From Agrococcus jejuensis (lineage in GTDB: Bacteria > Actinomycetota > Actinomycetes > Actinomycetales > Microbacteriaceae): DNA of 64,000 nucleotides. The stretch covers positions 558,001 to 622,000 of the forward strand of contig NZ_LT629695.1 in NCBI RefSeq assembly GCF_900099705.1, written 5' to 3'. Shown piece by piece: positions 38,231 through 38,802 of this stretch. Made by a program: the position numbers and the translations under genes. Each line of letters starts with the position of its first letter. Position 1 is the first letter of the stretch. Under the pieces are notes generated by a model. That model was not told the origin of the DNA, ran no database searches, and worked only from the letters and a program-made list of their open reading frames with translations.

Positions 38231-38245
38231 GACAGACCTCCGATG

Positions 38246-38291
38246 TGGTCAGTCTTGTCGCTGTGCGGGTACTGCGCCCTCGTCCGCACGC
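38246..38291 (-). promoter_or_regulatory. Guanidine-III (ykkC-III) riboswitch
   Basis: Read on the minus strand, GUGCGG (38289-38284) pairs with CCGCAC around ACGAGG and GCGCAGUAC. The downstream GACAAGACUG supplies ACUG (38253-38250), which pairs with CAGU to form the pseudoknot. The order ACGAGG..GCGC..GUACCCG..GACAAGAC matches the guanidine-III aptamer as I remember it from Thermobifida, almost base for base in the conserved positions. It ends 8 nt before the GGAGG of the SMR pair, so translational control is likely, with guanidinium turning expression on. The pseudoknot is short (4 bp). Confidence 0.9.
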
Positions 38292-38309
38292 CTGCCCCGG
38301 CGTGCTTCC

Positions 38310-38315
38310 AGGGTA
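38310..38315 (-). promoter_or_regulatory. -10 box (TACCCT) of the riboswitch-SMR transcript
   Basis: TACCCT lies 20 nt before the first paired base of the riboswitch, so the RNA would begin about 14 nt before the aptamer. Confidence 0.45.
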
Positions 38316-38355: not shown

Positions 38356-38802
38356 TCAGAGGTCGAGCGCGCCGACGACCTCGCCGAAGAGGATCTCGCC
38401 CGTCTGCACGAACCCGAGGCGCAGGTAGAAGCCCTCGGGGCCGTCGTCTCCGGGCTCCCACAGCACCGTGATCCGCTCGATGCCGCGCCGACGCGCCTCC
38501 TCGGCGACCTGCTCGACCGCGAACCGACCGACGCCGCGCCCCTGCGCCGACTCGGCGACGTCGAGCCGCCACACGCCGGCTCGGAACGCCTCGAGCTCGT
38601 TCTCGGGATCCCAGCTCGCCATGACGAAGCCCACGACCTCGTCGCCGTCGAGCACGACGCGCGGCCACGCCGACGGCGTGACGTATGCCTCAGCGATCGA
38701 GAAGACGACCGGCGCGACGTTCGCCGGCTCGCCCACCGCGGGTGGCAGGCGCACGGCGGCACCGAGGGTGTCGGGGGTGAGCTCGGCTAGTCGCAGGGTC
38801 AT
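38356..38802 (-). CDS. GNAT family N-acetyltransferase
   Basis: 148 residues with the GNAT fold. The acetyl-CoA loop is VAESAQGRGVGRFAVEQVAE (Q/R-x-x-G-x-G/A type), and the C-terminal FYLRLGFVQTGEI strand is also typical. The N-terminal part resembles spermidine/spermine acetyltransferase-like members. The acceptor cannot be named. TAGCCT lies 7 nt before the ATG, so the transcript is predicted leaderless. The gene lies just after prfA and before the riboswitch. Confidence 0.88.
   Translation of the reverse strand: MTLRLAELTPDTLGAAVRLPPAVGEPANVAPVVFSIAEAYVTPSAWPRVVLDGDEVVGFVMASWDPENELEAFRAGVWRLDVAESAQGRGVGRFAVEQVAEEARRRGIERITVLWEPGDDGPEGFYLRLGFVQTGEILFGEVVGALDL

Follow-up and report, generated by a model that had tools for sequence, protein, structure and literature searches.

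A two-gene SMR operon of the Gdx type is probably led by a guanidine-III riboswitch, a small RNA element sensing toxic guanidine, that works as a translational ON switch. The element lies in a 64 kb stretch of DNA that was analysed as a whole (the window), and the parts of the leader and operon are collected in Table 1. The riboswitch is one more member of a class already in Rfam, at the usual location of that class; judged by its sequence, class membership is close to certain, and ligand binding is predicted with it. That the switch acts on translation, and in the ON direction, is very likely, and a candidate hairpin over the Shine-Dalgarno site is on balance favoured as the switching element.

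Table 1. Parts of the leader and operon, in window positions.
Feature	Position	Strand	Basis or remark
Candidate -10 element TACCCT (TANNNT)	38310..38315	-	32 nt upstream of ACGA core
5' hairpin ACGCC/GGCGU, 5 bp, upstream of P1	38288..38303	-	Rfam alignment
Guanidine-III aptamer core	38250..38287	-	RF01763 and position check
P1, GCGG/CCGC	38287-38284 / 38268-38265	-	Position check
ACGA	38283-38280	-	Then GG
C6, G7, G17 (crystal numbering)	38282, 38281, 38272	-	Position check
GCGC	38277-38274	-	Position check
GUACCCG	38272-38266	-	Position check
GACAAGAC	38259-38252	-	Conserved core block
P2 pseudoknot, CAGU/ACUG	38274-38271 / 38253-38250	-	Position check
Candidate OFF hairpin	38231..38254	-	GAC 38254-38252 with GUC 38233-38231; U.U mismatch; GACC 38250-38247 with GGUC 38238-38235; loop ACAUCGGA
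Shine-Dalgarno GGAGG	38237..38241	-	Part in loop, part in stem of OFF hairpin
SMR exporter subunit 1, 104 aa	37916..38230	-	PF00893, Gdx-Clo relative
SMR exporter subunit 2, 114 aa	37570..37913	-	PF00893, Gdx-Clo relative; stop codon just past

The guanidine-III identity had been proposed in a preliminary description, with a covariance-model search among its suggested checks. This search bore the identification out. The Rfam model RF01763 matches window positions 38244-38308 of the minus strand with 39.1 bits (gathering score, 36), a margin of just 3.1 bits in a class where most relatives of the query score higher. The E-value is 1.2e-4 when the window is searched with all Rfam families and 1.5e-6 in a one-family search of the whole genome, and RF01763 gave no second match over the whole 3.4 Mb genome. 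Within the window, tRNA is the sole other Rfam family above its gathering score. The blocks were found on the minus strand in the order first described (ACGA then GG, GCGC, GUACCCG, GACAAGAC, CAGU, ACUG), and a loose pattern built on the blocks has one match in the window and no match in any of 60 dinucleotide shuffles of it. The core is complete, including G7 and G17, the guanines in contact with the ligand, and the stacking C6; U11 of the aptamer is absent. The crystal numbering and the nucleotide roles are those given in PMC5696562. The limits originally drawn, 38246..38291, take in the core, but the Rfam match adds a 5' hairpin that lies outside them.

The element was compared with leaders from related genomes. 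Of 299 genomes sampled from the host family (Microbacteriaceae), 146 have a guanidine-III match at E <= 0.001, as do 144 of 297 sampled from the host order; the two samples overlap, with 18 matching host-family genomes, the query's included, in both. Two rounds of exclusions reduced the 147 host-family matches to 133 leaders. The first removed 12 (ten leaders of CBU_0592-family genes, described below, L108 for failing the pattern, and L146, a false match as judged by its core) and the second removed two, L102 and L121, in which the start is unclear or the gene decayed. Outside the host family the order contributed about 130 matches, from which 90 were used (the 30 best and 60 chosen by hand, chiefly on score and across families) and about 40 left out; the strict core pattern then excluded ten of the 90. 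Start codons were chosen by a script using an SMR motif, and a few GTG or TTG picks may be wrong.

These relatives bear on whether the query element could be a decayed or chance look-alike that does not bind the ligand. Such a reading could draw on the slender score margin, low among the relatives, on the missing U11 and on two mismatches in P2, but each conserved core block is intact and the gene context is the usual one for the class. Moreover, the element is kept in congeners, with P2 pairs changed on both sides: P2 is CCGU/ACGG in the query's five congeners and CAGU/ACUG in the query, a compensated change in which pair 16-37 is A-U in the query and C-G in the congeners. In each of the five congener genomes drawn, an SMR gene follows the match, although one of these matches scores below the cut-off. 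The look-alike reading is highly improbable and was ruled out by the score of the model, the completeness of the core and the congener evidence.

The canonical P1 helix consists of the four GCGG/CCGC pairs plus the C20-G29 pair known from the crystal structure. A 6-bp P1 (GUGCGG/CCGCAC), as first described, is possible, yet its two outer pairs borrow bases of the 5' hairpin and it competes with that hairpin of the Rfam alignment; it was not retained. The 4-bp pseudoknot CAGU/ACUG, on the other hand, was located at the bases reported, with four contiguous pairs followed by G.A and C.C mismatches and a last G-C pair. The T. fusca aptamer (PDB 5NWQ) shares with the query ACGA, G17-U18-A19-C20, GACAAGAC, a P1 with C20-G29, an H-type pseudoknot and an SMR gene downstream; it differs in the U11 that the query lacks and in a P2 of 7 bp, against four contiguous pairs in the query. 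P2 is therefore shorter than in the solved aptamer, as had been remarked, but this is the norm in the host family and not peculiar to the query, since 55 of 57 host-family leader clusters have 4 or 5 contiguous pairs in P2. In the other families of the host order P2 has 4 or 5 bp in 31 of 45 clustered leaders and 6 or 7 bp in 12 of 45. The guanidine-I and guanidine-II riboswitches share ligand and gene class with guanidine-III according to the literature, but have different folds.

The start codon of subunit 2 follows the stop codon of subunit 1 by 2 nt. Both proteins match PF00893 far above its cut-off of 23.7 bits (69.2 and 67.2 bits for subunits 1 and 2, respectively), and the closest solved relative of both is the guanidinium exporter Gdx-Clo (PDB 6wk5; E 1.6e-16 and 6.6e-19). 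Residues E13, W16, S42, Y59 and W62 are kept in both subunits, and residue 10 is Gly in subunit 1 and Ala in subunit 2. The Arg/Lys bias of the loops, with loop limits set by hand, is opposite in the two subunits (+6 versus -3). YkkCD is a paired Gdx-type SMR heterodimer. Like YkkCD-type pairs, the query has two adjacent genes, W16 in both products, opposite Arg/Lys bias and a guanidine riboswitch upstream; it differs from them in having Ala rather than Gly at residue 10 of subunit 2. W16 is described as conserved in Gdx proteins and replaced by Gly or Ala in Qac proteins (PMC7695847), and opposite Arg/Lys bias is given as the expectation for paired SMRs (PMC9574504). The best NCBIfam match of both subunits is NF008512, the SugE equivalog, at 88.2 and 65.6 bits; these scores miss its cut-off of 126, so the subunits are classed as Gdx-type only and not as SugE itself. 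By script, a second SMR gene stands behind the first in 37 of the 133 host-family leaders and is absent in 95, with one undecided.

Together, the riboswitch class, the Gdx-type residues in both subunits and Gdx-Clo as the best solved match point to guanidinium as the predicted substrate of this SMR pair. The leader had been called direct evidence that the exporter handles guanidinium; this can be deduced from it, but 'direct' is too strong.

Export had also been suggested as the sole response to guanidine. In favour of this, no urea/guanidine carboxylase was found in the genome above the TIGR02712 cut-off, all 17 matches being weaker than it, the genome contains no guanidine-I riboswitch, and no second guanidine-III element was found. 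The Rfam models gave no guanidine-II match over the gathering score in the window. Against it, the genome has two arginase-family genes, the stronger of which passes the NCBIfam agmatinase cut-offs, and the second leaves room for what may be a guanidinase. A second SMR pair is present in the query genome outside the window (C1:2203379-2204037), with Ala, as judged by eye, at the W16 position. No Rfam family exceeds its gathering score at these loci, and the best NCBIfam matches are of the Qac/Ebr type, all below cut-off. This pair probably belongs to another SMR subtype, and was rejected as a guanidine-linked candidate on the lack of an Rfam element, the Qac/Ebr-type matches and the Ala in place of W16.

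Upstream of the aptamer, a TANNNT box starts 24-42 nt before ACGA in 99 of 133 host-family leaders, compared with 2 of 133 in a control segment of similar length further upstream. Its distance is nearly fixed in these leaders, with a peak at 34-36 nt before ACGA. This position suggests that transcription probably begins just before the 5' hairpin, which would probably put the aptamer right at the 5' end of the transcript. A gene for a GNAT acetyltransferase (PF00583; window 38356-38802, minus strand) ends 48 nt before the Rfam match on the same strand.

An aptamer at the 5' end would also suit a different mode of action, in which the ligand-bound pseudoknot blocks RNase E scanning, the main effect is on mRNA stability and masking of the Shine-Dalgarno site is minor. 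An effect on stability is reported for guanidine-III according to a review (PMC12186494), and the candidate -10 element just upstream of the 5' hairpin in those 99 leaders is consistent with it. However, this explanation is unlikely; it does not account for how often the 3' strand of P2 finds complementary bases ahead of the start codon.

A translational ON switch, the mode preferred here, has been predicted for the guanidine-III class (PMC5696562, PMC12186494). In the query, ACUG is separated from GGAGG by 8 nt, the spacing reported in the preliminary description. The distance from the four-pair P2 to the Shine-Dalgarno site is thus 8 nt (from base 41, 5 nt), compared with 16 nt from the 3' end in T. 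fusca (PMC5696562). The segment GACUGACC (38254-38247) is complementary to GGUCUGUC (38238-38231) with one U.U mismatch; GGUCUGUC runs up to the AUG and shares bases with the Shine-Dalgarno site, which the resulting pairing, GAC.GACC/GGUC.GUC, encloses. The hairpin uses bases 35, 36 and 38 of the 3' strand of P2, so that the hairpin and P2 are mutually exclusive. In the proposed mechanism, when guanidine is absent, GACUGACC, including the 3' strand of P2, would pair with GGUCUGUC immediately 5' of the AUG, trapping the Shine-Dalgarno site in the hairpin. With guanidine, the P1/P2 pseudoknot would be stabilised, CAGU would take up the 3' strand of P2, the hairpin would be prevented and the ribosome could bind. 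Both SMR subunits would then be co-produced, leading to guanidinium export.

A specific competing hairpin can thus be named for the query, whereas the T. fusca paper mentions competing structures only in general terms (PMC5696562). Among the titles and abstract openings searched, a set that includes neither the 2017 paper validating the class nor the 2021 paper on RNase E, none describes a Shine-Dalgarno hairpin of guanidine-III. Pairing of P1 and P2 in T. fusca is reported to persist even without ligand (PMC5696562), which counts against a hairpin switch; however, P2 has 7 bp there, and the 4-bp P2 of the query would be expected to open more easily.

Support for the hairpin comes mainly from the relatives. 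The query fold itself, for the segment ending at the AUG, has -9.8 kcal/mol and is not significant at the 5% level (p 0.06, with 12 of 200 shuffles equivalent), and about three quarters of 118 host-family leaders likewise fail individually to beat their shuffles at 5%. Taken as a set, these 118 distinct leaders fold better than shuffled linkers (mean -7.2 versus -5.1 kcal/mol; Wilcoxon p 1.7e-10), as do clustered leaders from the host family (57, p 5.4e-6) and from the order's other families (45, p 6.8e-4). These p values overstate independence, because the leaders are related. In 40 of 57 host-family and 30 of 45 other-family clusters, the linker pairs with three or all four of the P2 bases 35-38. 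GUC stands directly 5' of the start codon in 57% of the 102 clustered leaders and at none of 46 control genes of the window, and fusing the same hexamer to control-gene starts gives weaker folds than those of the leaders (-4.6 versus -6.4, p 1.1e-4). In addition, base 38 covaries with position -5 (Fisher p 5.9e-4, with three A38 leaders excluded). Base 37 and position -4 do not covary significantly (p 0.059), and their pair forms in just 47% of host-family clusters. Sequence and models together show that the complementarity recurs in the relatives and that its pairing excludes P2.

The tests that bear on switching itself are less uniform. Replacing the linker of a leader by that of another costs little (own versus swapped, p 0.11 in the host family and 0.15 in the order); the difference reaches p 0.038 when donors have a different hexamer, and linkers from same-hexamer and different-hexamer donors do not differ (p 0.20). 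The effect is weak, and linker swapping was given up as a demonstration of covariation. With the P2 bases held, the cost of opening the Shine-Dalgarno site to the AUG falls from 9.7 to 2.1 kcal/mol, a gain of 7.6 that appears only for the segment ending at the AUG; once 15 or 30 nt of the coding region are added there is no difference (4.2 versus 4.1 and 4.3 versus 4.2 kcal/mol, respectively), and the attempt at an energetic proof of the switch failed at this step. The weak swap tests and the vanishing energy difference would be expected if the hairpin were no switch, GUC before the AUG being kept for other reasons (start-site context, weak constitutive translation) and the complementarity being a by-product. 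This account is harder to reconcile with control-gene starts that lack GUC, with shuffles and foreign starts that fold less well and with the covariation of base 38 and position -5, and is rather doubtful. Given the mixed outcome of the tests, the OFF hairpin is best regarded as a good hypothesis and not as a result.

Ten of the 147 host-family guanidine-III matches, from six genera, precede not an SMR gene but a solo gene for a membrane protein of the CBU_0592 family (L052, L067, L079, L105, L116, L128, L130, L131, L142 and L143, in genomes G225, G097, G008, G091, G057, G227, G055, G126, G150 and G226, respectively). The proteins have 82-101 aa and all ten pass the NF047864 cut-off. Seven of the ten genomes, one of them 86% complete, gave no SMR match. 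Across the 299 genomes, CBU_0592-family proteins are encoded at 39 places in 38 genomes, 29 of them without a guanidine-III riboswitch, and the family name is absent from the literature searched. This context makes the protein a candidate for a guanidinium transporter outside the SMR family. In six of the ten leaders (L116, L128, L130, L131, L142 and L143) the core block GACAAGAC lacks AA and reads GACGAC, as seen in the Rfam alignment for three and by eye for the others; two SMR leaders, L141 and L147, lack AA as well. The AA-less core could be a tolerated change, a sign of decay or a variant whose ligand preference has shifted.

A broader reading can be offered tentatively, at less than even confidence. 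The guanidine-III leaders of this actinobacterial order would share one expression platform, in which the 3' strand of P2 is used a second time to form a hairpin over the Shine-Dalgarno site; P2 would have shrunk to 4-5 bp because a longer helix would not open for this hairpin, and the same design would drive a second, unrelated small membrane protein, that of the CBU_0592 family, maybe a non-SMR guanidinium exporter. If true, the named competing structure would be useful, and it can be tested by a few base changes; the CBU_0592 loci, if confirmed, would point to a further protein family that handles guanidinium.
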